Shown here one piece after another: positions 4,450 to 24,595 of a stretch of DNA of 64,000 nucleotides. The position numbers and the translations under genes are program-made. Under the pieces are notes generated by a model. That model was not told the DNA's origin. It did not search any database and saw only the letters and a list, made by a program, of their open reading frames with translations. The first letter of the stretch is position 1. Each line of letters starts with the position of its first letter. This stretch comes from Candidatus Allofournierella pullicola (GTDB lineage: Bacteria; Bacillota; Clostridia; Oscillospirales; Ruminococcaceae). The stretch covers positions 1 to 64,000 of the forward strand of contig DXFW01000040.1 of assembly GCA_019114225.1 (NCBI GenBank), given 5' to 3'.

Positions 4450-4827
4450 CTAACTCACAGCCATTCCAGTACCAAATGCTCTATTCACGGCTGCAAGTAA
4501 CTGCTCAGGCCTGTTGTACTTCACCTTGGCATAAACGTCCATAGTGATCTTACTCTTTTCATGGCCTGCCAGATACTGCACAGTTTTGGGATCTACCGAT
4601 GCATGGATGAGGTTAGTTATATATGTATGCCGTAGCTGATGAGGTGTCACCCTGAAGTCCAAGCTGTAGACCACTTTGGAATTATGTGCCGCAGCTTTAC
4701 CCAGTTGAGGTTTTACCGTAATATAGGCAATCCATTTACTTGCTTGCACCGCTCCGCTGGATCCATCTTGGCATGCCTGGCCGTCTGTGACCTTGACCTT
4801 GCACAAATGAATTACCGCTATATTCAA
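4450..4827 (-). pseudogene. Tyrosine recombinase (integrase), C-terminal remnant
   Basis: About the last 75 of 125 residues form the C-terminal catalytic part of a phage/ICE tyrosine recombinase. They contain HQLRHTYITN (His and second Arg), GHEKSKITMDVY with the nucleophile Tyr, and the usual NRPEQLLAAVNRAF tail. A full enzyme has about 350-400 residues. The DNA-binding domains and the first catalytic Arg/Lys region are missing, and the first 45 or so residues do not look like integrase. It lies 87 bp from attL and points toward it, the normal position for the integrase of such an element. It is almost certainly inactive. Confidence 0.8.
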
Positions 4828-6702: not shown

Positions 6703-7920
6703 TCAGCGAACATCCTTCGGCAGATTGCGGAACAGCACGAAGGGGAACACCAGCAGGAGCAACCCTAATAAATACAAGCTTTGCAGCGGCAGACCAGCAG
6801 TGTTTTTGTCCAGCACCTCGATCAGAGCCGAGCATATTGAAGTTCCCACCAGGGAAGCAACGCCACTGATCAAGGAGTATGCTGAGAAATACACGCTTCG
6901 CATCTCGGCATCACTGGTTGCGACTCGCAGCTGCAGCGTTCCCACTGAGATACCGGACATGGGCAGAGTACTCAGCACCAGATAGATCGGCGCAATCCAA
7001 AATCCATTTTGGGGTCCAGAGAAAAACAACAATAGTGCCAGCAGGGCGTACAGCACAAAGATATTGGAAAGGCAGGTCTTCCAGCCTATCCTGGAGGCGA
7101 TACGGGAAAACACCGGCGCAAACGCGCCGCGCAGAATGTTTCCGGCCGTTCCCCATATCATAAGGGTGATGAAATCGATGTTCAGCACTCTCACCGCATA
7201 CACTCCGAACAAGCCACCAACGAACACATTGGCGAAACACCAGGAAGCGTTTGCCATGATGACCTTGGTGTGGTCTTTGTTCTTCAGCACCTGCAACAGA
7301 GTGGTGAGCGAACCGCCCTGTGAACGACCGGCGACCGGTGCGCTTAGTAAAGGCAGAATTGCCAGGCTGGTCAGCAGCAGCACGGCCTCCGCGATTCCCG
7401 CCAGAAAGAAACCAGCTTGTAGATTTCCCATCCGCTCCGATACTGAGATGGTGATTTGGACGGCCGCGTTGGCTACCGTGTAGATCAACATGAACAGGGT
7501 CTCACGGGCGGTGTAATAAGAGGTACAGTGCTCGGCTTCTGCAAGTTCGACTTGCCAGTTCTCGTAGGCGGGCGCCGAGAGTTGCTGAATGCCCTGCATG
7601 ACGAAAAGCAGTATGCAGAAAATGGCCGCACCGCTCGACATCGGCAGCAGAACCGTAAAGAACACCAGGCAGATGCTGACTCGCCACAGGACGTTCATGC
7701 CCACCAAAAAACGATGCTTGTGATTAAGCCTGGCGTAGAACAAACCACCCACAGGCTGTAGTGCCAGAAAGGTGGAGGAAAGGCCGGTAAGAAGATTTGA
7801 CAGGCCCAAAGGAAGATTGTAATACTGAGTGAGCTTGGCAATTAAAAAGCCCGTGCAGATCCAGTACGCGCTCATGGAAAAATTGTACTCAAGAATAAAC
7901 AACCGCAGTCGATGGCTCAT
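6703..7920 (-). CDS. MFS transporter
   Basis: A 405-residue integral membrane protein with about 12 hydrophobic segments and the layout of the major facilitator superfamily. There is a short basic loop near residue 70 (ARLNHKHR) in the place of the family's loop 2-3 motif. The start at 7920 (MSHRLRLF) is preceded by GAGGAACAG; the reading frame stays open 18 codons further up but without a good site. It is on the minus strand, downstream of and in the same direction as the AraC gene, with a terminator between them. Inside a glycan locus it could import sugars or export products such as monosaccharides or sulfate. The substrate is unknown. Confidence 0.8.
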   Translation of the reverse strand: MSHRLRLFILEYNFSMSAYWICTGFLIAKLTQYYNLPLGLSNLLTGLSSTFLALQPVGGLFYARLNHKHRFLVGMNVLWRVSICLVFFTVLLPMSSGAAIFCILLFVMQGIQQLSAPAYENWQVELAEAEHCTSYYTARETLFMLIYTVANAAVQITISVSERMGNLQAGFFLAGIAEAVLLLTSLAILPLLSAPVAGRSQGGSLTTLLQVLKNKDHTKVIMANASWCFANVFVGGLFGVYAVRVLNIDFITLMIWGTAGNILRGAFAPVFSRIASRIGWKTCLSNIFVLYALLALLLFFSGPQNGFWIAPIYLVLSTLPMSGISVGTLQLRVATSDAEMRSVYFSAYSLISGVASLVGTSICSALIEVLDKNTAGLPLQSLYLLGLLLLVFPFVLFRNLPKDVR

Positions 7921-8016
7921 AAACTGTTCCTCATTTGCAAATAGCATTTTGGGAAGGACCATATAGTAAGGCAATGCTATTTTACTCGGAAGAACTCAAT
8001 TCCGCAATAGGCAAAA

Positions 8017-8073: not shown

Positions 8074-8904
8074 TCAAGTGGAAGAATTTCTTCCCCGATA
8101 TTCGGAAGGAGATATTCCGAATCGCTTTTGAAAACTCTGTGAAAAATAGTTTCCGCTGCTAAAGCCCAGATTTCCACTAATGCTCACGATGCTACGATCG
8201 GTGGTCTCCAGCAGAAACTTGGCATCTCGGAACCGGCAGGATAGCATGTGCTCGATAGGGCTTACTCCATACCGTTTTTTGAACGCACGAATGAGACCAC
8301 ATCGGTTCAGTCCCACCTTGTCGGACAGCATCTCTAAGTTCAAAGGACTTGTGTAGTTGTCGTCAATGTATTGTTTGACCCACGCAATGCTGCTCTGTAA
8401 ACGGTTTTCAGTACTGACTTCCTGCTTGATTTCGCCGCCGGTAATTCTCGACAGATGGATCATAATGAGCTGTGCGATTCGCAGCGCTGCTCCAGAATAT
8501 TGCTTTTTCTTGTTCTGCAGCTCGCTTATCAATAAGGTCAGCAACTGCACCATGCCCTTACTATCCGCAACAAAAGAGCCGTGATAATAGCCGTTAGAGT
8601 CTGTAGGAAGGTTGGAATAGCCGCCCTTGATTCCAAGCACCACCCACTCTACTGGGGATTCCGGGATGGCTCGCTCCACATGTTCGGTGTCTGGATTGAT
8701 GAGAACGAATTCGTAAGGATGCAGCGTAAAACTAGAGTCACGCACAAAGAACTCACAGTCTCCGCTCACACAGAAGAAGATTTCAAGAAAGGAATGTGCG
8801 TGCCGAGTACCAATCCAGTGCTTTTCATAACGGAAACTGGTCACATACAGCAACTGAAGACCATCCTCCGCCACCGCATCTTCCAATTCAAAAAGATTGT
8901 ACAT
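8074..8904 (-). CDS. AraC-family transcriptional regulator
   Basis: 276 residues. The N-terminal half is an AraC-type cupin (RHAHSFLEIFFCVSGDCEF, then NPDTEHVE), the usual effector-sensing domain. The last about 100 residues hold two helix-turn-helix units, with NLEMLSDKVGLNRCGLIRAF and the family signature SISGNLGFSSGNYFSQSF. The start at 8904 (MYNLFELE) follows AAGGCGGTGACCTT; a longer reading frame of 101 more residues runs into the promoter region and has no regulator-like sequence. It is transcribed away from the ABC/glycosidase operon across a 197-bp gap. It is the likely local activator of that operon, responding to an imported sugar or breakdown product. Confidence 0.88.
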   Translation of the reverse strand: MYNLFELEDAVAEDGLQLLYVTSFRYEKHWIGTRHAHSFLEIFFCVSGDCEFFVRDSSFTLHPYEFVLINPDTEHVERAIPESPVEWVVLGIKGGYSNLPTDSNGYYHGSFVADSKGMVQLLTLLISELQNKKKQYSGAALRIAQLIMIHLSRITGGEIKQEVSTENRLQSSIAWVKQYIDDNYTSPLNLEMLSDKVGLNRCGLIRAFKKRYGVSPIEHMLSCRFRDAKFLLETTDRSIVSISGNLGFSSGNYFSQSFQKRFGISPSEYRGRNSST

Positions 8905-9101: not shown

Positions 9102-10382
9102 ATGAAAAAGAGCAAGCTTCTGAAAGCCCTGTGCGGTGTTTGCGCCGTGGGTATGATGCTGACCGCTTGCGGTGGCACCACCGCGGAAAGCACTCCTGCC
9201 GATGCATCCGGCAGCCAGGCTGCTTCCACCGGCAAGACCCTGACCTACTGGTCGATGTGGAACTCCACCGAAGGCCAGGCCAAGGTGATCCAGGAGGCCG
9301 CTGACGCCTATGAGGCCGCTACCGGCATCAAGATCAACATCGAGTGGAAGGGCCGCGACGTGAAGAACCTGATCGCTCCCGCCCTGGACGCTGGTGAGAA
9401 GATCGACATTTTCGATCAGGACTATGTGTTCATCTCCAGCACCGCCAGCAAGTACGCTGCAGATGTGACTCAGATGGTGGCTGATGCCGGCCTGGAGGAG
9501 CATATGCTGCCTGTTCTGGTGGAGACCGCTAAGAGCTACAACGACGGCGCCCTGAAGGTCATTCCCTACCAGCCCTACACCTCCGGCGTGTGGTATAACA
9601 AGGCGATGTTCGAGGCTGCTGGCATCGAGAACGTTCCCACCACTTTCGACGAGCTGCTGGATGTCTGCGAGGCTCTGAAGGCCAGCGGTGTGAACCCCAT
9701 GACCTGCGACCAGGGCGACGGCACTGCGCTGCTGATGGGTTATCAGCTGGCTCGCTACCTGGGCCAGGATGGCGTTCTGGATATGATCAACAACGCCAAG
9801 TGGGCTGAGGTTCCTGAGGCTAAGAAGGCCGCTGAGGACATCTACACCCTGTTTGCCAACGGCTACATGTCCGAGTACGCTCCTGCCAACTATCCCGACG
9901 GCGAGAACGAGCTGGGCTACGGCGAGACCGCCATGCTGCTGCAGGCTTCTTGGGTTCCCAACGAGGTTGTGCAGAACACCGGTGCTGAAATCGAATGGGG
10001 CTTCTTCCCCTGGCCCGCTGTTGAAGGCGGCGTGGACGGCGTAGAGGCCGCTATGGTCGGCGCTCAGGGCTATGCCATCGTCGAGACCAGCGAGTACAAG
10101 CAGGAAGCTTTCGACTTCATCCAGACCGTGGTCACCGGCGAGACCGATCTGAAGATGGCTCAGGCTGTTTCCTCCATCCCTGCCGATACCGCTAACACCG
10201 AGTGGCCCCAGGCCGTGTCTGGCGCTGAGCCCTACTTCAAGCAGATGACCAAGTCCTACCTGTGGGCGGTTGGCCTGCAGGAGAACGGCAACTACAAGGA
10301 TTACATCCAGGAAGCCATCAACCAGCTGTGCAAGATGGAAATCGACGCCACCGGCTTCATTGACGCCCTGTCCGATCTGTAA
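9102..10382 (+). CDS. Sugar ABC transporter substrate-binding lipoprotein
   Basis: 426 residues. A lipoprotein signal peptide ends in LTAC with the lipidated Cys at residue 23, followed by a Ser/Thr/Ala-rich linker. The rest is a family 1 extracellular solute-binding protein (LTYWSMWNSTEGQAKVIQEA, as in oligosaccharide binders). It should capture an oligosaccharide outside the membrane and hand it to the permeases encoded next. Codon choice is strongly restricted (GCT/GCC, AAC, GAC, AAG), which suggests high expression. A terminator-like hairpin separates it from the permease genes. No ATPase gene is present in the island, so a shared MsmK-type ATPase elsewhere in the genome is needed. The start follows GGAGGATAAAC. 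Confidence 0.92.
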   Translation: MKKSKLLKALCGVCAVGMMLTACGGTTAESTPADASGSQAASTGKTLTYWSMWNSTEGQAKVIQEAADAYEAATGIKINIEWKGRDVKNLIAPALDAGEKIDIFDQDYVFISSTASKYAADVTQMVADAGLEEHMLPVLVETAKSYNDGALKVIPYQPYTSGVWYNKAMFEAAGIENVPTTFDELLDVCEALKASGVNPMTCDQGDGTALLMGYQLARYLGQDGVLDMINNAKWAEVPEAKKAAEDIYTLFANGYMSEYAPANYPDGENELGYGETAMLLQASWVPNEVVQNTGAEIEWGFFPWPAVEGGVDGVEAAMVGAQGYAIVETSEYKQEAFDFIQTVVTGETDLKMAQAVSSIPADTANTEWPQAVSGAEPYFKQMTKSYLWAVGLQENGNYKDYIQEAINQLCKMEIDATGFIDALSDL

Positions 10383-10445
10383 TCTGAATAGCCAAATAAA
10401 GCGCTTACCCACGAAGCGATCCTAATCCAAGCAGTTGTGGGACGC

Positions 10446-10484
10446 AAAGGGGAGCTCTTTCAGGGGATAGAGCTCCCCTTTTTT
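10446..10484 (+). terminator. Intra-operon terminator/attenuator after the binding protein
   Basis: A perfect 13-bp stem (10446-10458 with 10469-10481) ending in a run of Ts, in the 145-bp gap between the binding protein and the first permease. It probably lets the binding protein be made in excess over the membrane components. Confidence 0.75.
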
Positions 10485-10527
10485 CGGCGAAGCATTCCCC
10501 CATTGCAAACAGAAAGGGGTATTTCGG

Positions 10528-11430
10528 TTGAAAAAAGACAAAAAAATGATCGTATGCTTTTTAACGCCGGCATTGTTCATGTTTTCAGTAATTTTCCTGT
10601 ATCCGGTGCTGCGCACGATCGCTATGAGCTTTTTCCAGGTTGAAGGTGTTAGCGATGCCTTCAGCACTTGGAAATTTACCGGTCTGGACAACTACATCAC
10701 TCTGCTGCAGACCCCGATTTTCCTGGACTCTATGAAGAACATGCTGAAGATTTGGGTATACGGCGGCATTGCTGTCATGCTGGTCTCGTTGCTGTTTGCG
10801 GCGATCCTCACCAACGGCCTTGCAGGCAAGACCTTCTATAAAACGGTCATCTATATTCCCAACATCATCAATGCGGTAGCTATGTCCACCATGTGGATCA
10901 CCGCTATCTTCAACAAACGGTTCGGATTTCTGCACAACTTCTTTGCGCTGTTCAATTCCGATCTGGCAAAGACCGACTACATGAGCGGTTCTATCAAGTT
11001 CTGGTCTCTGCTGGTGGCCTTCTGCTTCGGTTCGGTGGGTTACTACATGCTCATTTTCATGGGTGGCATTGAGCGTCTTTCGCCGGACATGTATGAGGCT
11101 GCCACTATCGACGGCGCCAGCAAGGTCAAGCAGTTCACCCGCATCACTTTGCCCCTGCTTCGTGGCGTGTTCAAAACCTGCCTGACCTTCTGGTCCATCG
11201 GTGTTGTGGGCTTCTTCGTTTGGAGCCAGATGTGGAGTGCGCCGCTGGCCAGCGAGCTGAGCACCACTACGCCCTTTGTTTACATGTACAACATCACCTT
11301 CGGCACCCAGGGCAACACCTTCCGGAATGCGGCCATGGGCGCAGCTGTGGGTGTGTTGATGGCAGTCACTGTGCTTATCGTTTTCTTCCTGATCAACTTC
11401 TTGATCAAGGATGACGACGTGGAAGTGTAA
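10528..11430 (+). CDS. ABC sugar transporter permease 1
   Basis: 300 residues with six predicted membrane segments, of the MalF/UgpA type. The EAA loop that contacts the ATPase reads EAATIDGASKVKQFTRITLP. The TTG start is placed at 10528 after AAAGGGG; no closer ATG has a better site. It forms the import channel together with the next gene, which begins 19 bp downstream. Confidence 0.92.
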   Translation: MKKDKKMIVCFLTPALFMFSVIFLYPVLRTIAMSFFQVEGVSDAFSTWKFTGLDNYITLLQTPIFLDSMKNMLKIWVYGGIAVMLVSLLFAAILTNGLAGKTFYKTVIYIPNIINAVAMSTMWITAIFNKRFGFLHNFFALFNSDLAKTDYMSGSIKFWSLLVAFCFGSVGYYMLIFMGGIERLSPDMYEAATIDGASKVKQFTRITLPLLRGVFKTCLTFWSIGVVGFFVWSQMWSAPLASELSTTTPFVYMYNITFGTQGNTFRNAAMGAAVGVLMAVTVLIVFFLINFLIKDDDVEV

Positions 11431-11449
11431 AGAGGGGGGAGAACAAACC

Positions 11450-12313
11450 ATGAAAAAGCAGAAAGCTTCAACGCTGGAGGCCAGAAAGCAGTTGCGGATG
11501 TTGCCGGGCCACCTTGTGGTCGGTCTCTGGTGTCTGTTTACCATCGGCATGCTGGCTTGGATCGTGGCGGCAAGTCTGTCCACCTCGCCTGAAATTATGA
11601 GGGGTGAAGCCCTCAAGTTTGCCACCGGTTTCCATTTCGAAAACTACATCAACGCCTGGACTGCCAATAACATCTCGGTGTTCTTCGTGAACTCCCTGCT
11701 CTATGCTTCTTGCACCATGGTGGGTTCGCTGGCTATTAGCGCGCCGGCCGCCTATGTGCTGGGGCGATACGTGTTCAAGGGCAACAAGCTGGTTCGCAAT
11801 GGCTTTATCACGGCCATGAGCCTGCCTCAGATTATGATCATCCTGCCTTTGTTCTCGCTGGCCACCCAAGCAAGCCTTACCGGCTCCAAATTCGTGCTGA
11901 TTTTCATCTACATTGGCATGCAGGTGCCTTACACCACCACTTTCCTTATCAGCTTCTTCTCCTCGCTTTCCAGTGTGTACGAGGAGGCTGCCGCGATCGA
12001 CGGCTGCCCTCCGATGAAAACTTTCTGGAAAATCATGTTGCCTCTGGCCCAGCCGGGCATTGTCACGGTAGGCATCTTCAACTTTATGAATATCTGGAAC
12101 GAATACTTCCTGTCGCTGATTTTCGCCTCGTCGGAAAAGAACATGTCGGTTGGCCCCGGCTTGAAGAGCGTGCTCACTGCCATGCAGTACACCGGCGACT
12201 GGGGTGGCCTCTTCGCGGCGGTTGTTATCGTATTCCTGCCCACCCTGGTTCTGTTCCTGTGCCTGTCCAAGACGATCATTAGCGGTATCACCGCAGGCGG
12301 CGTCAAAGGCTGA
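11450..12313 (+). CDS. ABC sugar transporter permease 2
   Basis: 287 residues, MalG/UgpE type, with six membrane segments and the EAA loop EEAAAIDGCPPMKTFWKIML. The ATG at 11450 follows AGAGGGGGGAG; an earlier in-frame ATG at 11411 overlaps the preceding gene and lacks a site. The GH20 gene follows 27 bp downstream, so transport and hydrolysis are one transcription unit. Confidence 0.92.
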   Translation: MKKQKASTLEARKQLRMLPGHLVVGLWCLFTIGMLAWIVAASLSTSPEIMRGEALKFATGFHFENYINAWTANNISVFFVNSLLYASCTMVGSLAISAPAAYVLGRYVFKGNKLVRNGFITAMSLPQIMIILPLFSLATQASLTGSKFVLIFIYIGMQVPYTTTFLISFFSSLSSVYEEAAAIDGCPPMKTFWKIMLPLAQPGIVTVGIFNFMNIWNEYFLSLIFASSEKNMSVGPGLKSVLTAMQYTGDWGGLFAAVVIVFLPTLVLFLCLSKTIISGITAGGVKG

Positions 12314-12340
12314 TTTCACAACCAAGAAAGGTCAATACCC

Positions 12341-14239
12341 ATGAAATTTCATACCGCAGATCCCAAACTACGGCAGCTGCTAGACACAGTCAGCGCGCAC
12401 CTGCCTCTGTATACTCGTGGGCAGGATGAACTGACCGTGGAAGTGGAGTGGGCAAGTGCGCCCAACTCCCTTCCCAGTTGGAAGAAGGCGGATGGAAAGC
12501 TAAGCATCACCTGCTATACAGCAGGTGATGCCCTAATGCTTATCGGACGCGGCCTCACGCAATCCGATAAGACCTCAGAGACGCTTGAACCTCGCTTTAC
12601 CGAGATGGCGGCCATGCTCGATGTATCCCGCAACGCGGTTTACACTCTGGCCACACTGAAAACCTTTCTGTGCCAACTGGCCATGATGGGCTATACAGCG
12701 TGCTATCTCTATATGGAGGACACCTATGAACTGCCCGGTTACCCCTATTTCGGCTATCGGCGGGGTCGCTACAGCGTAGAGGAGCAAAAGGAGATCGATC
12801 GTTTCGCGCAGTCTGTGGGAATCGAGCTTGTACCCTGCATCCAGACGCTGGCGCACCTTCGCACCGCGATCCGCTGGTCGTATATGCAGCCCATGCGGGA
12901 CACCGTTGATAACTTGAAAGTGGGCCACCCGGAAACCGAGGCTCTTGTGGAAGCAATGATTGCTCACTTCAGCAAGACCTTCCAAAGTCGGCGCATCCAT
13001 CTGGGCATGGATGAGGCCGTCAGCCTTGGCACTGGGCGGTATCTGCGGGAAAACGGCTACCGAGACCACCGGGAGATTTTGATGAATCACCTGCACACGG
13101 TCTGCCGCTTGTGCGAAAAATATGGGTTGCAACCCATGATTTGGGACGATATGCTCTTCCGGGATCGTACTCCCCTGATGGATTACTACGGCAACAGCGA
13201 TCCGGTGTCCGAACAGGATGCCGCTTGCTATCCGCCCGGTTTAACCTTTGTGTACTGGGATTATTACCACGACACTCAGGAGGAGTACGAGGCCCAAATT
13301 CGTCGGCGGGGCTGTCTGAAAACAGCCTTTGCTGGCGGTGTTTGGAAATGGGGCGGCTGGGTGCCAAACCTCACCAAGAGTTTCCAGGATTCCCAGGCGG
13401 CAGCGGAAGCCTGCTACAGTCTGGGCGTACAGCATATCCTGGTCACTTTGTGGGGGGATGACGGAGAAGAAACCCCGTTGGCAACCGTACTCCCCGGCAT
13501 GGCCCTTTACGGCCTGCTGCGGTATGGCTCTGCTGCGCCGGGCCAGACCGACGCATATTGCCGCTTGTTCAGTGATGCCCCGTTGGCAGCATATACCCTC
13601 ATGGAAAAGCTGAATACAATACCGGGCATACCTCAAGAAAACCTTGAGGCGCTGATTCCGCACAAGTTGCTACTCTACGGAGACATGGCAAGCGAATTGT
13701 TCCAACCCTCTCTTACCTCCGCGCCTGCAACATTGGCAGCGTATTATGAAGCGCTTGCGCCCCAGTTCGCTGCCTTTGCGCAGAACACACGCTGCGAGAG
13801 TTTGCAACGCATCCTTAAGATGTACCAGTGTCTTTCCCAAGTTTTGTCCATCCGTTGCAACGCCTCTGCCGCGCTGCACGATGCTGTTACTCAGCAAAGC
13901 CAGCAGCAGTCCCTAGCCGCCGCTACAGACCTTCTGATAGAAATGAAAGCCCAGGTCGAAGCCCTTCACGAACTTACAGTGGAGGTCTGGTCTCAGGAGC
14001 GCAAAGGCCAGGGCATGGAAATTCTGGATCTGCGCTTGGGTGGAGTAGCAGCACGTTGCCGGGCGCTGTGTAAACGGATCGAGCTGTTCACGGAGGGACG
14101 CATTGACGCTCTTTCCGAACTGGAGGAATCTTTCCTCCCATATCAAGGTATCTTGTCTCTGGACGGTCACACCCCCGGTCGGGAAGCCTACGGAGAGATT
14201 GTTACCGCTAATACGCTGTGCCACCAGTTCAGCGTCTGA
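12341..14239 (+). CDS. GH20 exo-beta-N-acetylhexosaminidase
   Basis: 632 residues with no signal peptide. The family 20 catalytic motif HLGMDEA carries the Asp224-Glu225 pair, which polarises the substrate N-acetyl group and acts as acid/base. A TIM-barrel pattern with FVYWDYYHDT and a later WGGWVPN is as in this family. The C-terminal about 200 residues are helical and unassigned. It should remove terminal beta-linked GlcNAc or GalNAc from imported oligosaccharides in the cytosol. Some GH20 members are lacto-N-biosidases or act on 6-sulfo-GlcNAc, and sequence reading cannot separate these. The start follows AAGAAAGG. It belongs to the ABC operon, followed 21 bp later by the beta-helix gene. 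Confidence 0.85.
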   Translation: MKFHTADPKLRQLLDTVSAHLPLYTRGQDELTVEVEWASAPNSLPSWKKADGKLSITCYTAGDALMLIGRGLTQSDKTSETLEPRFTEMAAMLDVSRNAVYTLATLKTFLCQLAMMGYTACYLYMEDTYELPGYPYFGYRRGRYSVEEQKEIDRFAQSVGIELVPCIQTLAHLRTAIRWSYMQPMRDTVDNLKVGHPETEALVEAMIAHFSKTFQSRRIHLGMDEAVSLGTGRYLRENGYRDHREILMNHLHTVCRLCEKYGLQPMIWDDMLFRDRTPLMDYYGNSDPVSEQDAACYPPGLTFVYWDYYHDTQEEYEAQIRRRGCLKTAFAGGVWKWGGWVPNLTKSFQDSQAAAEACYSLGVQHILVTLWGDDGEETPLATVLPGMALYGLLRYGSAAPGQTDAYCRLFSDAPLAAYTLMEKLNTIPGIPQENLEALIPHKLLLYGDMASELFQPSLTSAPATLAAYYEALAPQFAAFAQNTRCESLQRILKMYQCLSQVLSIRCNASAALHDAVTQQSQQQSLAAATDLLIEMKAQVEALHELTVEVWSQERKGQGMEILDLRLGGVAARCRALCKRIELFTEGRIDALSELEESFLPYQGILSLDGHTPGREAYGEIVTANTLCHQFSV

Positions 14240-14260
14240 CATTCACCACACAGAAAGCGA

Positions 14261-15919
14261 ATGGGATTTATGAGTAATATGAATATGACCGCTGCCCAGC
14301 AGCATTATTCCGGTCACCGTGCAACGATTTATTATGTCAGCAGCCGTTCGGGCGACGATACAAACAGCGGCCTCTCCCCTCAAAGCGCCCTGCGCAGCCT
14401 TGATGCGGTCAGCCGTAAGCCGCTGGCGCCCGGCGACAGCATCTTGCTGGAGCGTGGCAGTCGATTCGAAGGCGAGTATCTGCACCTGCGTGATATCCAC
14501 GCCTCTGCTGCCAACCCCATTTGCATCGACGCCTATGGCGAGGGCGTAAAACCTGAGATTCATGTCAACGGGCAGGGCTTGTGGTTCCAGGACTACGGTG
14601 TACCCCTGGACAACCCGGCTCACAAAAATTCCGGATATGTATCCAGCGCCGTGCTGCTTTATGACTGCGAAGGCATCGAGATTTCTGACTTGTCTATCAC
14701 CAACTGCAGTGAGGAGCCGGACGCTGTCTACAACGCTCTCGACCGTATGGACCGAACCGGTGTGGCGGTGGTGGCGCAGAACAGCGGTACCCTTAGCCAT
14801 ATCCACCTGCGCGATCTTACAGTGTGTCATGTGCACGGCAATGTGTACAACAAGCATATGAACAACGGTGGCATTTACTTCACTGCCTTCATGCCAACAG
14901 ACGAGGCGAAAACCGGAATTGCCCGGTTTGACGACGTGTGCATTGAGGGTTGCTATCTGGAAGACGTGAATCGGTGGGGCATCGCGGTGGCCTACACCGC
15001 ATATTGCGGCCATTTTCTTGCCAAAGAGATCCCCGACGATGTAGTTGCGCGGTACGGTGCCAGCCGCGTAGTCATCCGCCGCAACTTTGTCAAAGATGCC
15101 GGCGGCGATGCCATCACCACCATGTACTGCGACCGCCCTCTCATCGAGTACAACGTTTCCGATGGAGCTGGCCGCCAGATCAACAAAAAGGACTACGCCG
15201 AAAGCGACTTCGGTCGGGTGGCAGCCGCCGTCTGGCCTTGGAAATGCAAGGATGCACTGTTCCAGTTCAATGAAGTGTTCAACACCCGTTACCACAATGG
15301 CGAAAACCAGGACGGCCAGGCTTTTGACGCCGACTGGGGTGACGGCACAATCTACCAGTACAACTACAGCCACGACAATGAGGGCGGCTGCCTGATGGTC
15401 TGCGGTGAGGAGGCGGTGAACACCGTTTTCCGTTACAATATCAGCCAGAATGATGGCCGGGCCATCCTGTTGCCGGCCAGTAGTCCGGTGGCACAGGTGT
15501 ACAACAACACCTTCTATATCAAGGAAGGCGTACCCTTCATCGACACCAACAGCGATGCCGTAGGACCCATGGTGCTGAAGAACAACCTGGTTTACTATGC
15601 TGGCTCTCATCCCCGGCATGAAAACTGGTACACAGATGTTACCGAATACTGCAACAACCTGTTCTGGGGCTACCAGAACACGCCGGAAAACGGACAGAAT
15701 AATCTAACGGCAGATCCCTGTCTGCAGTCGCCCGGTACTGGGAAGACCGGCACCGAACAGGGCCCTGCTCTTGACACCTTGGCAGGTTACTGCTTGTGCG
15801 AGAGTAGCCCTGCTGTCGGCGCTGGGGTAACCACTGGACCGCAGCTGGTGGATTTTTATGGAAATAGCATTCCCAATCCCCCCTCTGTCGGTGCACACCA
15901 GTTGCCTGCAAAGAATTAA
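14261..15919 (+). CDS. GH136-like right-handed beta-helix glycosidase, candidate lacto-N-biosidase
   Basis: 552 residues. The N-terminus (YYVSSRSGDDTNSGLSPQSA) is typical of the start of secreted-type parallel beta-helix enzymes, and the rest shows short repeated strands (VFRYNISQNDG, IYQYNYSHDNEGG). The segment NQDGQAFDADWG has Asp351 and Asp358 seven residues apart. From memory this matches the spacing of the two catalytic Asp residues in GH136 lacto-N-biosidases. GH136 releases lacto-N-biose, the substrate of the GH112 enzyme encoded 37 bp downstream, which supports the call. There is no signal peptide and no LnbY-like chaperone gene nearby, so it would be cytoplasmic. Another beta-helix family remains possible. 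The ribosome binding site is weak; ATG 14270 is an alternative start. Confidence 0.6.
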   Translation: MGFMSNMNMTAAQQHYSGHRATIYYVSSRSGDDTNSGLSPQSALRSLDAVSRKPLAPGDSILLERGSRFEGEYLHLRDIHASAANPICIDAYGEGVKPEIHVNGQGLWFQDYGVPLDNPAHKNSGYVSSAVLLYDCEGIEISDLSITNCSEEPDAVYNALDRMDRTGVAVVAQNSGTLSHIHLRDLTVCHVHGNVYNKHMNNGGIYFTAFMPTDEAKTGIARFDDVCIEGCYLEDVNRWGIAVAYTAYCGHFLAKEIPDDVVARYGASRVVIRRNFVKDAGGDAITTMYCDRPLIEYNVSDGAGRQINKKDYAESDFGRVAAAVWPWKCKDALFQFNEVFNTRYHNGENQDGQAFDADWGDGTIYQYNYSHDNEGGCLMVCGEEAVNTVFRYNISQNDGRAILLPASSPVAQVYNNTFYIKEGVPFIDTNSDAVGPMVLKNNLVYYAGSHPRHENWYTDVTEYCNNLFWGYQNTPENGQNNLTADPCLQSPGTGKTGTEQGPALDTLAGYCLCESSPAVGAGVTTGPQLVDFYGNSIPNPPSVGAHQLPAKN

Positions 15920-15956
15920 GAAATTACCATCAATTGATAAAGGATAGGTTCTATCA

Positions 15957-18125
15957 ATGAATAACGATTTGAAAACCGGTCGAGTAACCATTCCCACCAA
16001 CCTCGACGTTGTACCTGAGACCATCGAGATTTTGAAACGCTGGGGCGCGGACGCAATTCGGGACTGCGACGGCACCGAATTCCCCGAAGAACTCACTAAA
16101 GTGGGTGCGAAAATCTATTCCACCTACTATACCACCCGCAAGGACAACGCTTGGGCGAAGGCGAATCCGGACGAGGTACAGCAGTGCTACATTATGACCG
16201 GCTTTTACACCGCCGAGAACGGCGAGCTGCGCATACCTCTCATGCAGGGTATCAGTGATGAGCTGTTGCAGGTAAACACCCGGGATGATATGAAGCGCTG
16301 GTGGGAGGTCGTGGATCGTACCACTGGTCAGCCGCTGTCTCCCGATTCCTGGAGCTACGACGAGACAGATGGCTGCGTGGTCATTCCCGCGCCGGAAGCC
16401 TACCACGAGTACACCGTGAGTTTTCTGGCTTACATCATTTGGGATCCCGTACATATGTACAACGCGGTGACCAACGACTGGAAGGACTTTGAACATCAAA
16501 TCACCTTCGATGTACGTCAGCCCAAAACTCACAAGTTCACCATGGAACGCCTGCGCAAGTTCATCGCCGACCATCCCTACGTGAACGTGATCCGCTACAC
16601 CACCTTCTTCCATCAGTTCACGCTGGTGTTTGATGAGCTGAAGCGCGAAAAGTATGTGGACTGGTTCGGCTATTCTGCCTCCGTGTCCCCCTACATCCTG
16701 GAGCAGTTTGAGAAAGAAGTGGGCTATAAGTTCCGCCCCGAGTACATCATCGACCAGGGCTACTACAACAACCAGTACCGTGTGCCCAGCAAGGAGTTCA
16801 AGGACTTTATGGCTTTCCAGCGTCGCGAGGTAGCGAAGCTGGCCAAGGAAATGGTGGACATCACCCACGAGCTGGGCAAGGAAGCCATGATGTTCCTTGG
16901 TGACCACTGGATTGGCACCGAGCCCTATCTGCCGGAGTTTGCCTCTATTGGGTTGGACGCCGTGGTGGGCAGTGTGGGTAATGGCTCTACCCTGCGCCTC
17001 ATCAGCGACATTCCCGGTGTGAAATACACCGAGGGCCGCTTCCTGCCCTACTTCTTCCCCGACACCTTCCACGAGGGCGGCGACCCGGTGAAGGAAGCCA
17101 AGGAAAACTGGGTCACTGCGCGGCGGGCTATCCTGCGCAAGCCGGTGGACCGCATCGGCTACGGCGGCTATCTGAAACTGGCTCTGGAGTTCCCTGAATT
17201 CATCGACTACGTGGAGAGCGTTTGCAACGAGTTCCGTGAGTTGTACGAGAATGCCCGTGGCACCACCGCCTACTGCATCAAGACTGTGGCGGTTCTGAAC
17301 AGCTGGGGCAAAGCCCGCAGCTGGGGCTGCCATATGGTGCATCACGCACTGTATCAAAAGCAGAACTACAGCTACGCCGGTATCATCGAGGCGCTCTCTG
17401 GCGCGCCCTTTGATGTGCGTTTCATCAGCTTTGACGACATCAAGGCTGATCCCTCCGTCCTGAACGATGTGGACGTGCTGGTGAACGTGGGCGATGGCGA
17501 CACCGCCCACACTGGCGGCGCGGTATGGGAAGATCCGGCAGTATCCGCTACGATTCGTGGTTTCATCCGCCAGGGTGGCGGCTTCATCGGTGTGGGTGAG
17601 CCTTCCGGTCATCAGTACCAGGGCCGTTACCTCCAGCTGGCTGCCGCGCTCGGCGTGGAGAAAGAGACTGGCCTGACTCTTAACTATGATAAGTACAACT
17701 GGGATGAGCATCCCGACCACTTCATCCTGGCTGACACCACCAAGCCGGTGGACTTCGGCGAAGGCAAGAAGAGCATTTACGCTCTGGAGAACACTGAGAT
17801 CCTGGTGCAGCGGGAAAAGGAAGTGCAGATGGCCGTCAACGAGTACGGCGAAGGCCGCAGTGTGTATATCAGCGGCCTGCCCTACAGCTTTGAGAACAGC
17901 CGCATTCTGTATCGTTCCATTCTTTGGGCCAGCCACAGCGAGGACGAACTGCACAAGTGGTTCAGCTCCAACTACAATGTGGAAGTGCATGCCTATGTGA
18001 AGAACGGCAAGTACTGCGTGGTCAACAACACCTACGAGCCGCAGCACACCACTGTCTACACCGGTGATGGTGCCAGCTTCGATTTGGATATGGACGCCAA
18101 CGAAATCCGCTGGTACGAAATTTAA
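15957..18125 (+). CDS. GH112 1,3-beta-galactosyl-N-acetylhexosamine phosphorylase
   Basis: 722 residues, the usual length of the family. It cleaves lacto-N-biose or galacto-N-biose with phosphate to galactose 1-phosphate and GlcNAc or GalNAc in the cytosol. Recognisable segments are RWGADAIRDCDGTEFPEEL near the N-terminus, FFHQFTLVFDE, and GDHWIGTEPY with Asp316. That position agrees with the general acid (Asp313) I recall for the bifidobacterial enzyme. A C-terminal glutamine-amidotransferase-like domain (GGFIGVGEPSG) and a small beta-domain follow, as in known structures. The start follows AAAGGATAGG. It is the last gene of the ABC operon. Kinase and uridylyl-transferase genes to use the products are not in the island. 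Confidence 0.9.
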   Translation: MNNDLKTGRVTIPTNLDVVPETIEILKRWGADAIRDCDGTEFPEELTKVGAKIYSTYYTTRKDNAWAKANPDEVQQCYIMTGFYTAENGELRIPLMQGISDELLQVNTRDDMKRWWEVVDRTTGQPLSPDSWSYDETDGCVVIPAPEAYHEYTVSFLAYIIWDPVHMYNAVTNDWKDFEHQITFDVRQPKTHKFTMERLRKFIADHPYVNVIRYTTFFHQFTLVFDELKREKYVDWFGYSASVSPYILEQFEKEVGYKFRPEYIIDQGYYNNQYRVPSKEFKDFMAFQRREVAKLAKEMVDITHELGKEAMMFLGDHWIGTEPYLPEFASIGLDAVVGSVGNGSTLRLISDIPGVKYTEGRFLPYFFPDTFHEGGDPVKEAKENWVTARRAILRKPVDRIGYGGYLKLALEFPEFIDYVESVCNEFRELYENARGTTAYCIKTVAVLNSWGKARSWGCHMVHHALYQKQNYSYAGIIEALSGAPFDVRFISFDDIKADPSVLNDVDVLVNVGDGDTAHTGGAVWEDPAVSATIRGFIRQGGGFIGVGEPSGHQYQGRYLQLAAALGVEKETGLTLNYDKYNWDEHPDHFILADTTKPVDFGEGKKSIYALENTEILVQREKEVQMAVNEYGEGRSVYISGLPYSFENSRILYRSILWASHSEDELHKWFSSNYNVEVHAYVKNGKYCVVNNTYEPQHTTVYTGDGASFDLDMDANEIRWYEI

Positions 18126-18167
18126 TAATTTCCTTCTTCTAATTCGCGTTAAACATCTTCCCCTCAT

Positions 18168-18212
18168 GCCGGGCGGCCTCCTCGATACTTCCGAGAGGCT
18201 GCCCGGCTTTTC
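18168..18212 (+). terminator. Terminator of the ABC/GH operon
   Basis: A 13-bp GC-rich stem with one G-U pair (18168-18180 with 18195-18207), followed by TTTTCT. Confidence 0.85.
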
Positions 18213-18356
18213 TCTACCGCTAGGTGGGCGAATTCACAAAACGTTCTTGTGCCACAGCTTGCCTATATTGAGGGATTCTGAGTCGGTTTAGGATCAATCC
18301 TACTGAACACACGATCCATCCGGTTGGATACTTCTGTTCTGGTTAGATGTGATTGA

Positions 18357-18888: not shown

Positions 18889-20247
18889 ATGGCTAATAAT
18901 ATCATCTTCTATTTCACCGATCAGCAAAGGTGGGATACATGCGGTTGCTTCGGACAACCCCTGAACATTACACCGAACCTCGATCGCCTGGCCGACAGCG
19001 GTGTGAAATTCCGAAACGCGTTTTCTCCGCAGCCTGTATGCGGCCCTTGCCGTGCGCTGTTCCAGACCGGACGTTATGCCACTGACATCGGTTGTTTCCG
19101 CAATAATATCATGCTACCGCCCAATGTGAAAACCCTGGCCAATTATCTTGAAGAAGCTGGATATGAGACCGCTTATGTGGGAAAATGGCATCTTGCAAGC
19201 GATGGCGATTTTTACGGTAATAATACTGTGGATCACACTACCACTGCTGTTCCTCGTGAGCTTCGTGGCGGTTATACGGGTTTTTGGCGTGCTGCGGACG
19301 TCTTGGAATTCACCTCCCATGGCTACGACGGCTACGTTTTCGACGAAAACAACCAAAGAATAGATTTCAAGGGTTATCGAGCAGACTGCATCAATGATAT
19401 GGCCCTTGAGTTTCTGGACACTTACAATGGGGAGAAGCCGTTCTTTATGACTATCTCCCAGATAGAGCCCCATCATCAGAATGATCGTCAGCACTATGAG
19501 GGCCCAATCGGTTCCAAAGAGCGGTTCAAGAATTTTGTATTGCCTCACGATCTGGAGGTGCTGGGCGGAAACGCCGCCGAGGAGTACCCGGATTATCTGG
19601 GGCAGTGTGCCAGCTTGGATGAGAATCTCGGGCGCCTGGTTTCCAAGCTGAGGGAAAAAGGGCTGTATGACAACACCGTTATCATCTATGCTTCCGATCA
19701 TGGTTCTCATTTCAAAACCCGCAACAAAGACAGCCATCGGAACGGCGGTGACGACTACAAGCGCACCTGCCATGACAGCGCATTGCGTGTACCCCTTGTT
19801 ATCTCCGGTGGCCCCTTCAATGGCGGTCTGGCGGTAGATGAGCTGGTGAGCACAGAGAGTTTGCCAAAGACGATTCTGGCGCTTGCCGGTGTTGATGTCG
19901 GTAGCGCAATGATCGGCGAAAACCTTTTGGACGTGGTGCACAAGTCGAATCCCGAGCGTCCCAACCGGGTATTCGCGCAGATTTCCGAAAGCCGCGTTGG
20001 ACGCTGTGTACGCACTCCCGATTTCCTGTACTCGGTTTACGCGCCTGGCAAGGACGGCGGAGAGGTGCCGGCTTCGAACGTCTATGCCGACGATTTTCTG
20101 TACGACCTCCGCAAGGATCCCTGGCAGCTGGACAACGTTGTTGATTCCCCGGATTACAATGAAGTCAAGCAAGAGCTGCGGCAATACCTGCTGGACTGGA
20201 TTGAGCACGCCGAAGGTTATCGTCCTACCATTCAAGACAACGCTTAA
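18889..20247 (+). CDS. Type I sulfatase (Cys-type), second
   Basis: 452 residues. NIIFYFTDQQRWDTCGCFGQ gives the metal-binding residues. The signature is CGPCR with Cys51 as the formylglycine precursor, then KWHLAS and YASDHG. It differs clearly from the first sulfatase (CSPSR) and so probably attacks another sulfate position. No signal peptide is present, so it should be cytosolic. The gene encoding a sulfatase-maturating enzyme begins 52 bp downstream in the same direction, the classic pairing. The start follows AAAGTGAGGG. The family is certain, but the substrate (for example 6-sulfo-GlcNAc or sulfated galactose) is not readable. Confidence 0.9.
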   Translation: MANNIIFYFTDQQRWDTCGCFGQPLNITPNLDRLADSGVKFRNAFSPQPVCGPCRALFQTGRYATDIGCFRNNIMLPPNVKTLANYLEEAGYETAYVGKWHLASDGDFYGNNTVDHTTTAVPRELRGGYTGFWRAADVLEFTSHGYDGYVFDENNQRIDFKGYRADCINDMALEFLDTYNGEKPFFMTISQIEPHHQNDRQHYEGPIGSKERFKNFVLPHDLEVLGGNAAEEYPDYLGQCASLDENLGRLVSKLREKGLYDNTVIIYASDHGSHFKTRNKDSHRNGGDDYKRTCHDSALRVPLVISGGPFNGGLAVDELVSTESLPKTILALAGVDVGSAMIGENLLDVVHKSNPERPNRVFAQISESRVGRCVRTPDFLYSVYAPGKDGGEVPASNVYADDFLYDLRKDPWQLDNVVDSPDYNEVKQELRQYLLDWIEHAEGYRPTIQDNA

Positions 20248-20299: not shown

Positions 20300-21421
20300 A
20301 TGCCTCCCGTTAATGTGTTGATTAAACCCGCATCGTCGGCCTGCAATATGGCCTGCACTTACTGCTTTTATCGGGATGTCGCTTGTCATCGCCAGGAAAA
20401 TTTCCAGGGAATGTTGTCTCTTGAACTGATGGAAAAAGTAATTGCCGGCGCCATGGAATTTGCCGAAGGCAGTTGCTCTTTCCTGTTCCAAGGTGGAGAG
20501 CCTACCCTGGCTGGGCTTGACTTTTACCGCAGCGTCGTGGCTCTGGTCCAGAAACACTCCAAAACGAACGTGGCTGTCAGCTATGCGATTCAGACCAATG
20601 CGTATCATCTTGACGAAGCATGGTGCGAATTTTTTCGGGACAACAAGTTTCTGGTCGGAGTCTCTTTGGATGGACCTGCGGATCTTCACAATTTGAATCG
20701 GCCAGACCAGACCGGCCGCAACACCTTCAACGATGTCATGCGGTCGATTGAGTTGTTGCGCCTGTTTAAGGTGGATTTTAACATCCTGTGCGTACTTACG
20801 GGAAAGAACGCTCGTTCAGTCGAACGCATTTACCGTTTTTACCGGAAGCATGGTTTCAACCATATTCAGTTTATCCCCTGCCTGGAGCCCCTGGATCAGC
20901 AGCGCGGCACCGAGAAATATCATCTTTCCGTGGATGAGTACGGCACATTTCTTGTCCGTCTGTTCGATTTGTGGTACCGGGATCTGCAAGAAGGATATTA
21001 TACGAGCGTGCGGCATCTGGACAACTGGCTCTCCATCCTTATGGGAGGCCGCCCAGAGTCCTGCGGGATGATGGGGCATTGTTCGATCCAGTTTGTTGTT
21101 GAAGGCGATGGTGGCGTCTATCCATGTGACTTTTATGTTCTGGATGAGTTGCGCCTAGGCACTGTCGGCATTGACCGTTTTGAAAACATGGCACACTCCC
21201 CCATTGCACAAGAATTCCTGCATAGCTCCTTTTCTGTGCCTGAAGAATGCAGGCAGTGCCATTATTACCCCCTTTGCCGGAATGGCTGCCGACGTGATCG
21301 CATGGTATCAAGCACAGGAATTCCTGTACAGACCTACTATTGCCCGGCATTAAAGCATTTCTTCTCCAGCCGTCTGGCCCAATTGCAGCAAGCCGCAGCT
21401 ATCTTGGCACGCTGGTGCTGA
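20300..21421 (+). CDS. Anaerobic sulfatase-maturating enzyme (radical SAM, SPASM)
   Basis: 373 residues. The radical SAM cluster motif CNMACTYC uses Cys15, Cys19 and Cys22. The middle contains the family-typical FLFQGGEPTLAG, VGVSLDGP and QFIPCLEP. The C-terminal SPASM region carries the further cysteines (CGMMGHCS, YPCDFY, CRQCHYYPLCRNGC) that bind two auxiliary clusters. Such enzymes oxidise the active-site Cys of sulfatases to formylglycine in the cytosol without oxygen. Length and motifs fit anSME well. It lies between the second sulfatase and the GH2 gene and should serve both island sulfatases, since both have Cys at the key position. Confidence 0.93.
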   Translation: MPPVNVLIKPASSACNMACTYCFYRDVACHRQENFQGMLSLELMEKVIAGAMEFAEGSCSFLFQGGEPTLAGLDFYRSVVALVQKHSKTNVAVSYAIQTNAYHLDEAWCEFFRDNKFLVGVSLDGPADLHNLNRPDQTGRNTFNDVMRSIELLRLFKVDFNILCVLTGKNARSVERIYRFYRKHGFNHIQFIPCLEPLDQQRGTEKYHLSVDEYGTFLVRLFDLWYRDLQEGYYTSVRHLDNWLSILMGGRPESCGMMGHCSIQFVVEGDGGVYPCDFYVLDELRLGTVGIDRFENMAHSPIAQEFLHSSFSVPEECRQCHYYPLCRNGCRRDRMVSSTGIPVQTYYCPALKHFFSSRLAQLQQAAAILARWC

Positions 21422-21769: not shown

Positions 21770-24595
21770 ATGCGACCCGATCTCCATTGGCTGGAGGATC
21801 CCACCGTCTGGCAAGTTAACAGACTGGATGCTCATTCCGACCACATCTGGTATCATCAAGGCAAAGATTTGCGGCAAAGCCTGGACGGACCTTGGCGCTT
21901 CGCCTGGAGCCCCCGCCCCGCCGACCGTCCTGAGGATTTCTGGCGGGAGGATTACGACCTGGCCGATTTCGGCATGATCCAGGTGCCGGGCCATATTGAA
22001 CTGCAGGGCTATAGCCAGGTGCATTATACCAATACCATCTACCCCTGGGACGGCGTGTCTGAACTTCGCCCGCCCCAGATCGACTGGAATGACAACCCTG
22101 TGGGCAGTTATGTGCGGTATTTCGATTTGGACGAGCCCCTGCGGGGTAAACGGGTCTGCATCTCGTTCCAAGGCGCAGAGCAGGCCATCTATGTGTGGCT
22201 CAACGGCCAGTTCGTGGGCTATGCGGAGGACAGCTTCACCCCCTCCGACTTTGACCTGACTCCCTATGTCCGGGAGCGGGGCAACCGCCTGTGTGTGGAG
22301 GTATACAAGCGCAGCAGTGCCGCCTGGATCGAGGATCAGGACTTTTTCCGATTCTCTGGGCTGTTCCGCTCGGTATATCTGTACGCAAAACCGGCGCTGC
22401 ATCTGGAGGACCTGTGGCTGCGCCCCACGCTGGAGACGGACGGCACTGGTAGCTTGCGGATGCGTCTGAAGCTGAGCACTGTTTGTCCCGGTCTTATGAC
22501 TGATCCCACCCAGTGCCAGGTGCATTGCCGGGTAGACACGCCTCAAGGGCAGCCGCTGTTCAACGGCCCTCTGACCTTAATCTCCGGCGAGGAAGGTGCT
22601 TTGGAGGCCGAACCTCTGGCTCTGGGGCCGGTACAACCTTGGCAATACGGCAATCCTTTCCTGTACCCGGTAGCCTTGACCCTGTTCGATGCGGCCGGGG
22701 TTGAGCAGGAGACAGTGCCCGCACGAACCGGGTTCCGGCGGTTCGGTATCGAGAACGGCATCATGGTGCTGAACGGCGAACGACTCATTCTGAAAGGCGT
22801 CAACCGGCACGAGTGGAGTGCCGAAAAGGGCCGCGCCATCGATGCAGAGGATATGCACCGGGATATGCGAGCAGTGCTGGGCGCGGGCATCAACGCGGTG
22901 CGTACCTCCCATTATCCCAATCAAAGTCTGTGGTATGATCTGTGTGATGAGTCCGGTATCTACCTGATTGACGAGACCAATCTGGAGAGTCACGGCACCT
23001 GGCAGAAACTTTGCGGTACTGACGCGGAGTGGAACGTACCGGGCTGTCTGCCCGAATGGGAAGGCTGTGTGGTGGATCGGGCCCGATCGATGTTCGAGCG
23101 GGACAAAAACCATCCCAGCATTCTCTTCTGGTCCTGTGGCAATGAGAGCTATGCGGGCACCTGTATCCAGGCCATGGCCAACTTCTTCCGCAACTGTGAC
23201 GACAGCCGCCTGGTACACTACGAAGGAGTGTTCCATAACCGGGCGTTCGATGATATCAGCGACGTGGAAAGTCGGATGTACGCCACGCCGGACGAGATCC
23301 GGGAGTATCTGACCGGCCCGAATCCGAATCCCATGCTGTTGTGCGAGTATATGCATGACATGGGCAACTCTCTGGGCGGCATGGAGGAATATATCCGACT
23401 GCAGGAGGAGTTTGCCCAGTACCAGGGCGGCTTTATCTGGGACTTCAAGGACCAGGCCCTTTGGCACACCGATCCTTTGGGCCGGCGAGTGTTGGGCTAC
23501 GGTGGCGATTTCGGCGACCGGCCAACCGATTACAATTTCAGCGCCAATGGCATCCTGTTTGCGGACGGGCGAGAAAAGCCCGCCATTCAAGAGGTGCGCT
23601 ACTGGTATGCAGACGAGGAAACCCGCCGTCGGCAGGATGAGGCCAACGCCCGGGCCCGACAACTGGCAGAGACGGAACTGAACGAGGAGCGTAAGGCCGC
23701 CGCCATGAAGGCGGGGGCGGCCCCCGCGCTGCGCATCGCCCGGGGTGACGGAAACCTGGGCGTGTACGGCAAGGATTTCTCGGTGCTGTTCTCCTACCAG
23801 GAGGGCGGGCCGGTAAGCCTGCGGTACAAAGGGGTGGAATGGATGTTCCGGGCGCCGCGTCCGGCGCTGTGGCGCGCCCCCACCGAGAACGATATCGGCT
23901 GCAGATTCCCCCAGAAGAGCGCCGTCTGGCGTGCGGCCGACCAGTATCTGCGCTGCAGCGGCTGGGAGATCCTGCACGCGGAGGCGGACGCGGCCACCAT
24001 CCGGTACAGGTTCACCCTGCCAGCGGTGCCGCAGGCTACGGCGGAGGTCTGCTATACCGTAAACCGGCTGGGTGAGATCCAGGTGCGTGCAGCTTTCCAC
24101 GGCGCGGCGGGCCTGCCGGAGCTGCCCTGTTTCGGTCTGCGCTTTTCCACCCCGGCCCCGGTGGACCGAGTGGATTGGCTGGGCCTCAGCGGCGAGACCT
24201 ATCCTGACCGGTGCAAGGGCGGAGTGTTCGGGCTGCACAGCGAGGTTCCGGCCCAGGCGGCATACCTGGTGCCGCAGGAGTACGGCTGTCATGTGGATAC
24301 GGTGCGGGCGATGCTGCACCGGCTGACCCCCGGCCTGGCTGACGCGGGTCGGCTGGAATTGGCCATGGAGCATGAGGCGTTCACCTTCTCGGCGGTGCCC
24401 CATACCTCTGGCCAGCTGGAAGAAGCCTGGCATCAAGAGGAATTGCCTCCCTCGGCCCGCACGGTGGTGTCGGTGTACGGCGCCATGCGCGGCGTGGGCG
24501 GCATCAATACCTGGGGCGCGGACGTGCAGCCGCCCTGGCGTGTAAGCGCTGAGGGCGAACATGTGCTGGCTTTCCGCCTTTGCCCTGGACGATAA
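21770..24595 (+). CDS. GH2 beta-galactosidase (LacZ type)
   Basis: 941 residues, somewhat shorter than E. coli LacZ. Domain order is a sugar-binding jelly roll (VHYTNTIYPWDG, FVGYAEDSFTPSDFDLT), immunoglobulin-like domains, a TIM barrel and a C-terminal galactose-mutarotase-like domain. The barrel carries GVNRHEWSAEKGRAI, INAVRTSHYPN, the acid/base Glu459 in SCGNES and the nucleophile Glu526 in LLCEYMHDMGNSLG. It hydrolyses terminal beta-galactosides. No signal peptide is present. The start follows a strong AGGAGG at 21760. It is likely the last gene of the sulfatase 2 unit, although the broken regulator upstream separates it by about 350 bp from the radical SAM gene. Linkage preference is unknown. 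Confidence 0.92.
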   Translation: MRPDLHWLEDPTVWQVNRLDAHSDHIWYHQGKDLRQSLDGPWRFAWSPRPADRPEDFWREDYDLADFGMIQVPGHIELQGYSQVHYTNTIYPWDGVSELRPPQIDWNDNPVGSYVRYFDLDEPLRGKRVCISFQGAEQAIYVWLNGQFVGYAEDSFTPSDFDLTPYVRERGNRLCVEVYKRSSAAWIEDQDFFRFSGLFRSVYLYAKPALHLEDLWLRPTLETDGTGSLRMRLKLSTVCPGLMTDPTQCQVHCRVDTPQGQPLFNGPLTLISGEEGALEAEPLALGPVQPWQYGNPFLYPVALTLFDAAGVEQETVPARTGFRRFGIENGIMVLNGERLILKGVNRHEWSAEKGRAIDAEDMHRDMRAVLGAGINAVRTSHYPNQSLWYDLCDESGIYLIDETNLESHGTWQKLCGTDAEWNVPGCLPEWEGCVVDRARSMFERDKNHPSILFWSCGNESYAGTCIQAMANFFRNCDDSRLVHYEGVFHNRAFDDISDVESRMYATPDEIREYLTGPNPNPMLLCEYMHDMGNSLGGMEEYIRLQEEFAQYQGGFIWDFKDQALWHTDPLGRRVLGYGGDFGDRPTDYNFSANGILFADGREKPAIQEVRYWYADEETRRRQDEANARARQLAETELNEERKAAAMKAGAAPALRIARGDGNLGVYGKDFSVLFSYQEGGPVSLRYKGVEWMFRAPRPALWRAPTENDIGCRFPQKSAVWRAADQYLRCSGWEILHAEADAATIRYRFTLPAVPQATAEVCYTVNRLGEIQVRAAFHGAAGLPELPCFGLRFSTPAPVDRVDWLGLSGETYPDRCKGGVFGLHSEVPAQAAYLVPQEYGCHVDTVRAMLHRLTPGLADAGRLELAMEHEAFTFSAVPHTSGQLEEAWHQEELPPSARTVVSVYGAMRGVGGINTWGADVQPPWRVSAEGEHVLAFRLCPGR

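Follow-up and report, generated by a model that had tools for sequence, protein, structure and literature searches.

A predicted cytoplasmic GH136 lacto-N-biosidase encoded without its GH136I (LnbY) partner

LnbX of Bifidobacterium longum, the founding member of GH136, is an extracellular enzyme whose activity requires co-expression of the adjacent gene (PMC8106489). The RhLnb136I/II locus of Roseburia hominis serves the uptake of LNT, LNB and GNB, and the GH136I helper has been treated as compulsory for activity (PMC7335108). In ErLnb136 of Eubacterium ramulus, Y145 of the helper comes to lie near the active site, and the Y145A exchange leads to a 4.9-fold higher KM. That the characterised LnbX, RhLnb136, RiLea/b136 and ErLnb136 need a partner or domain counts against partner-free activity. 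We found no published chaperone-independent GH136 in the open literature, a coverage that leaves out the paper on PDB entries 7v6m and 7v6i.

Here we describe a GH136 gene of Candidatus Allofournierella pullicola, a gut bacterium with kinship to Gemmiger. The gene lies in the window, by which we mean the whole stretch of 64,000 nucleotides analysed (contig DXFW01000040.1, positions 1 to 64,000). Our reading, which we hold with a probability of about two in three, is that it encodes a cytoplasmic GH136 which belongs to the LnbX/TnX branch and needs no GH136I (LnbY) to fold and to work in an import-first pathway.

Family assignment and catalytic residues

The open reading frame extends from an ATG at 14261 to a stop at 15919, coordinates as first noted, and encodes 552 amino acids:

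14261..15919, + strand: GH136 (LnbX/TnX-type) lacto-N-biosidase catalytic subunit, 552 aa, no signal peptide (assigned by profile, structure and alignment)
15311-15313, + strand: codon of D351, predicted acid/base, aligned with ErLnb136 D568
15332-15334, + strand: codon of D358, predicted nucleophile, aligned with ErLnb136 D575

The NCBIfam profile LnbX (NF047897) matches residues 17-545 with E 9.5e-127; its score does not reach the 2500 bits required over the whole length, a cut-off set for a multidomain protein of 1498 residues. A sequence search of the PDB retrieved TnX, ErLnb136, LnbX and BsaX at E 1e-147 to 6e-113; over all known GH136 structures the matches range from E 1e-147 to 4e-112. 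The AlphaFold model (pLDDT 87.9) predicts a right-handed beta-helix of LnbX type, which superposes on TnX, LnbX, BsaX and ErLnb136 with Z 49.6, 47.0, 46.2 and 39.6, followed by an alginate lyase as the next family (Z 27.9). The sequence-only reading had argued for a lacto-N-biosidase-type GH136 and yet doubted the family, a doubt explained by the fact that Pfam yields a generic Beta_helix match and nothing more specific. The profile search and the overlay on LnbX confirm its first choice, no different family scoring higher.

The Asp351/Asp358 pair on which that reading relied is present and invariant across 45 aligned homologues. In ErLnb136, D568 acts as acid/base, D575 as nucleophile, and W548 stacks on galactose (PMC7335108). 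D351 and D358 align with the two aspartates and W327 with the tryptophan, so that by alignment the protein would have the GH136 set of an Asp pair seven residues apart and a Gal-stacking Trp. The chain index of ErLnb136 in this alignment equals the residue number + 2, as confirmed by structure superposition. Comparison with the GH136 gene of Gemmiger sp. An120 gave dN 0.079, dS 1.16 and dN/dS 0.068; the gene is thus under purifying selection and maintained without a chaperone gene, and these rates indicate a maintained enzyme. Judged by its sequence, the protein is a genuine GH136 lacto-N-biosidase-type domain, and release of lacto-N-biose is its predicted activity.

Shortening of two GH136 loops has been linked to Lewis a/b specificity (PMC7335108). 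Loop 1 (ErLnb136 330-341) is equally long in the window protein and loop 2 (ErLnb136 520-543) is 2 residues shorter. Since the loops are not shortened as in the Lewis a/b type, we expect the specificity of a plain lacto-N-biosidase.

Location, partner gene and ancestry

The reading frame is interrupted by a stop 21 nt ahead of the first GH136 ATG and, from stop to stop, comprises just 559 codons. A longer start can therefore add no signal peptide, which excludes export by way of an upstream start. No hydrophobic core is seen in the 23 residues ahead of the first beta strand (maximal 11-residue hydropathy 0.3, versus 2.1-3.1 in relatives with signal peptides), and the signal peptide or anchor of the extracellular LnbX type is absent. 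The missing signal peptide noted from the sequence thus holds. The accompanying statement that characterised GH136 enzymes are extracellular does not: RhLnb136I and II of R. hominis have no signal peptide, are assigned to the cytoplasm and are active (PMC7335108). In addition, the short-form proteins of the L013-L042 branch are mostly signal-less. Intracellular GH136 enzymes are therefore ordinary and already known; the unusual part is the missing GH136I/LnbY partner.

For the partner search we built a profile, A1, from GH136I/LnbY genes adjoining GH136, with NCBIfam LnbY as a second, independent profile. As a control, A1 matches the helper domain of ErLnb136 (E 2e-25). No GH136I/LnbY gene was found near the window GH136. 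Both profiles likewise found none in the window genome (G000, 97.6% complete), in the Gemmiger genomes G021 and G139 (the sources of the L002 and L003 sequences) or in G224; the estimated completeness of these four genomes is 97-99%, and one of them matches isolate An120. Neither subunit nor fused domain is thus encoded in locus or genome, with positive controls, and the absence of the chaperone noted by the sequence-only reading extends genome-wide and to the whole clade.

A1 was positive in 23 of the 29 searched genomes with GH136-like genes. Among the remaining genomes searched, it matched every one with a close GH136 relative but G217 (83% complete, the weakest chaperone-less call), and most of those holding only 31-38%-identical GH136-like proteins. 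G180, with a 35%-identical protein and 85% completeness, gave no A1 match and was not used. In G154, the one helper copy lies beside other paralogues and not beside the copy of the window clade. Nearly every other GH136 gene with an available flank adjoins a GH136I/LnbY gene; an exception is the secreted L029, for which none was found within the 8-kb upstream flank, the only part searched. The close, signal-less relative L004 was left out of the scoring (3.5-kb contig, ending about 150 nt upstream of the domain). The 31-38%-identical beta-helix proteins (L060-L063, L103-L106) are often very long, and their genomes also hold diverged GH136I-like helpers, several of them close by; they are possibly an uncharacterised sister group sharing the same helper system.

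In a maximum-likelihood tree of 407 columns, the window protein forms a clade with L003, L002, L091 and L092 (support 96/95). This clade is nested in a secreted, chaperone-bearing branch (100/99) with L093, L006 and L009, followed by L094 and L095. The helper-paired short cytoplasmic enzymes fall into a separate branch, so cytoplasmic location arose twice. A second chaperone-less pair, L096 and L099, adjoins these short enzymes. A single origin was rejected both for all chaperone-less proteins (p-AU 1e-5) and for all signal-less proteins (p-AU 0.003), and parsimony requires two changes for the signal peptide and two for the chaperone. On this phylogeny, the window branch is placed as having lost signal peptide and partner gene separately from the L096/L099 pair. 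The ancestor would have been a secreted enzyme with an LnbY-type chaperone; the lineage would have dropped the signal peptide, the C-terminal extensions past the beta-helix and the chaperone gene, and the GH136 gene would then have entered an ABC-importer/GH20 operon.

Some further observations concern these relatives. L096 (1445-3073, - strand) and L099 (8497-9702, + strand) encode signal-less GH136 proteins without an adjacent chaperone; of their genomes, G217 has none at 83% completeness and G031 has a chaperone elsewhere. L012 (5397-15304), as well as L011, L008, L010 and L094, contains tandem arrays of 2-4 secreted GH136 paralogues with one chaperone gene upstream. One paralogue lineage of these arrays forms a separate branch (100/98) and may have another specificity. 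Only six positions are consistently specific to the window clade (190, 223, 269, 341, 399 and 401), and we base no claim about a presumed chaperone interface on them.

Gene neighbourhood and proposed pathway

The genes around the GH136 gene were assigned as follows:

4450..4827, - strand: tyrosine-integrase remnant
5126..6529, + strand: cytoplasmic Cys-type sulfatase (CSPSR motif), first of two; PF00884 E 4e-55, ORF listed from GTG 5084
6703..7974, - strand: MFS transporter, common to the Gemmiger island copy; PF07690 E 8e-14, in the 98.7% identical block
8074..8904, - strand: AraC-family locus regulator; HTH_AraC and AraC_binding, still divergently paired in relatives; the listed ORF reaches 9207, but an internal Met ahead of YNLFEL is the inferred start
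9102..10382, + strand: lipoprotein sugar-binding protein (SBP) of the ABC importer; SBP_bac_1 E 3e-27, N-terminus MKKSKLLKALCGVCAVGMMLTACGG, lipobox LTAC
10528..11430, + strand: ABC sugar importer permease, MalF type, start TTG as listed; orthologues in L089, L091 and L092, position and sequence reading
11411..12313, + strand: ABC sugar importer permease, MalG type; orthologues in L089-L092, position and sequence reading
12341..14239, + strand: GH20 beta-N-acetylhexosaminidase, GH20C type, no signal peptide; Pfam PF18088/PF00728, S. pneumoniae GH20C (5a69) E 7e-91
15957..18125, + strand: GH112 galacto-N-biose/lacto-N-biose phosphorylase, no signal peptide; TIGR02336 E 2e-298, PDB 3wfz/2zus
18889..20247, + strand: cytoplasmic Cys-type sulfatase (CGPCR motif); PF00884 E 6e-49
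20300..21421, + strand: anaerobic sulfatase-maturing radical SAM enzyme (anSME); TIGR03942 and PRK13758 above curated cut-off
21770..24595, + strand: GH2 beta-galactosidase, LacZ type; NF052611 above cut-off

GH112 starts 37 nt past the GH136 stop and so directly follows it, as the sequence-only reading had it. The gene order AraC-SBP-MalF-MalG-GH20-GH136 recurs in the window clade. In L091 (6917-7680, genome G154) the GH20 gene is apparently split into two short pieces beside an intact GH136.

The segment 4315-25783 (about 21.4 kb) is flanked by 48-bp direct repeats (4315-4362 and 25736-25783, 89.6% identical), of which the right one is the 3' end of rpsI (S9; ORF 25734-26135, identified by reading). 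G+C is mostly 50-57% within the segment versus 62-68% just outside, and the flanks are joined at an empty site in the same-genus genomes G002, G003 and G004. Window positions 5080-18290 match positions 2185-15395 of L089, a Gemmiger MAG contig from another genus, over 13.2 kb at 98.7% identity with sharp edges. This cross-genus block, the repeats, the integrase remnant, the lower G+C and the empty site mark the locus as a recently acquired island. On this comparative evidence, the glycan locus is best described as recently transferred horizontally and inserted at rpsI.

Neither sulfatase has a signal peptide. The enzymes of the locus appear to be cytoplasmic, so import should precede cleavage in this pathway. 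The ABC importer would take up short type-1 glycans (Gal-beta1,3-GlcNAc-beta1,3-R, perhaps sulfated), from which the anSME-activated cytoplasmic sulfatases would remove sulfate. GH136 would then release lacto-N-biose by a retaining two-Asp mechanism, with D351 as acid/base and D358 as nucleophile. GH112 would phosphorolyse lacto-N-biose to Gal-1-P and GlcNAc, and GH20 and GH2 would process the remainder. A pathway for type-1 mucin or milk glycans is our best reading. Gemmiger sp. An120 was isolated from chicken caecum (PMC6069880), and mucin upregulates the GH136 genes of Limousia pullorum ET540, also a chicken bacterium (PMC12997984). Milk glycans fit, but in view of these two chicken bacteria mucin O-glycans are at least as likely.

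The same data bear on whether the enzyme, although an intact GH136, has an altered specificity. Without the helper Tyr at the +1 subsite, to which Y145 of ErLnb136 probably contributes, it could admit other aglycones, so that not lacto-N-tetraose but mucin core fragments or Gal-beta1,3-HexNAc units, sulfated or otherwise, would be its substrates. The sulfatases and anSME on the same island would suit such substrates, as would the milk-free host of An120 and the mucin response of the ET540 genes. However, the catalytic pair and the stacking Trp are kept, the Lewis a/b-linked loops are of full length or 2 residues short, and an LNB/GNB phosphorylase directly follows. We regard altered specificity as possible, if the less probable outcome.

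The role of the helper and comparison with known systems

Y145 of ErLnb136 sits in an FTRYxGD motif that is kept in almost all cytoplasmic-type helpers. In the secreted branch, LnbY-type helpers lack this motif (FKQNDGI in L093, FVKDDDI in L094, FTKNDDI in L095), and those of the window enzyme's nearest relatives are among them. LnbY-type helpers resemble PPIC-type foldases (Rotamase_2, E 5e-7), and the solved structures of LnbX, TnX and BsaX are of single chains, the last two with lacto-N-biose bound. Given the lack of the active-site Tyr motif, the foldase likeness and the single-chain structures, the helper of the secreted branch seems to serve the folding of an exported protein rather than to form part of the active site. 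Once export was lost, it may no longer have been needed. We incline to the view that the second subunit is dispensable in this branch, which has neither export signal nor GH136I, is probably catalytically active and represents one of two independent losses.

The enzyme could still need a helper of an unrelated kind, such as GroEL, trigger factor or the adjacent GH20 protein. A general foldase could stand in, given the PPIC likeness of LnbY-type helpers, and in the window, L089, L090 and L092 (in L091 in broken form) the gene directly before GH136, where other loci have the chaperone, is that of GH20. Yet a comparison of GH136I and GH20 profiles showed no relation (probability 0.3%) and gave no sign of a helper domain hidden in the upstream GH20. 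The GH20 protein is itself a complete, conserved enzyme, and the GH136 of L091 is intact although its GH20 is interrupted. We consider an unrelated helper unlikely. Much less probable still is a GH136I/LnbY gene that was overlooked through incomplete genomes or sequence divergence. The window does come from a fragmented draft assembly of 40 contigs, but two profiles found nothing in four nearly complete genomes, one of them the isolate match; A1 detects helpers in most genomes whose GH136-like proteins are only 31-38% identical; and the gene order is closed, with 21 nt from the GH20 stop to the GH136 start. Finally, we dismiss membership in a neighbouring, uncharacterised beta-helix glycosidase family: apart from the generic Pfam match, the LnbX profile, the PDB matches, the gap in model Z and the tree all speak against it, and of the two options left by the sequence-only reading only the intracellular GH136, for which the missing signal peptide argues, still stands.

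A cytoplasmic GH136 working without its partner would matter in several ways. A natural clade without GH136I makes the claim of a compulsory helper directly testable, and it separates two helper roles, foldase only in the LnbX branch or active-site subunit in the Roseburia/Eubacterium branch. If the reading is true, a soluble single-chain lacto-N-biosidase would be a handier tool to make or analyse lacto-N-biose as well as milk oligosaccharides. In addition, Gemmiger-type bacteria, including a chicken isolate, join the predicted users of type-1 glycans, and in the window genome the trait is carried on a horizontally acquired island. As read from sequence comparison, what is new here is a cytoplasmic GH136 that was reached by an independent route and has no partner subunit.

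Among known systems, TnX of Tyzzerella nexilis (PDB 7v6m) is the best match, at E 1e-147 by sequence and with Z 49.6 and 1.6 A over 518 residues by structure. Its catalytic part, with the C-terminal region counted in, is of equal length, and its annotation reads Fibronectin type III domain-containing protein. TnX was reportedly expressed together with a chaperone. Within our set, the secreted members of this branch bear a signal peptide and C-terminal extensions and are accompanied by an LnbY-type chaperone gene, whereas the window protein has none of these. LnbX/LnbY (PDB 5gqc) shares the beta-helix fold (Z 47.0), the Asp pair and the profile, but LnbX differs in being extracellular and dependent on its co-expressed neighbour (PMC8106489). 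RhLnb136I/II resembles our system in its signal-less subunits and in a locus with ABC importer and GH112, but is active solely when both subunits are co-expressed (PMC7335108). The short, cytoplasmic, helper-paired enzymes of this type form a tree branch separate from the window clade. The catalytic domain of ErLnb136 (PDB 6kqs) superposes at 1.0 A over 420 residues with the same D, D and W. Its helper domain is fused N-terminally and gives Y145 to the active site, whereas the window protein has no helper, fused or separate.
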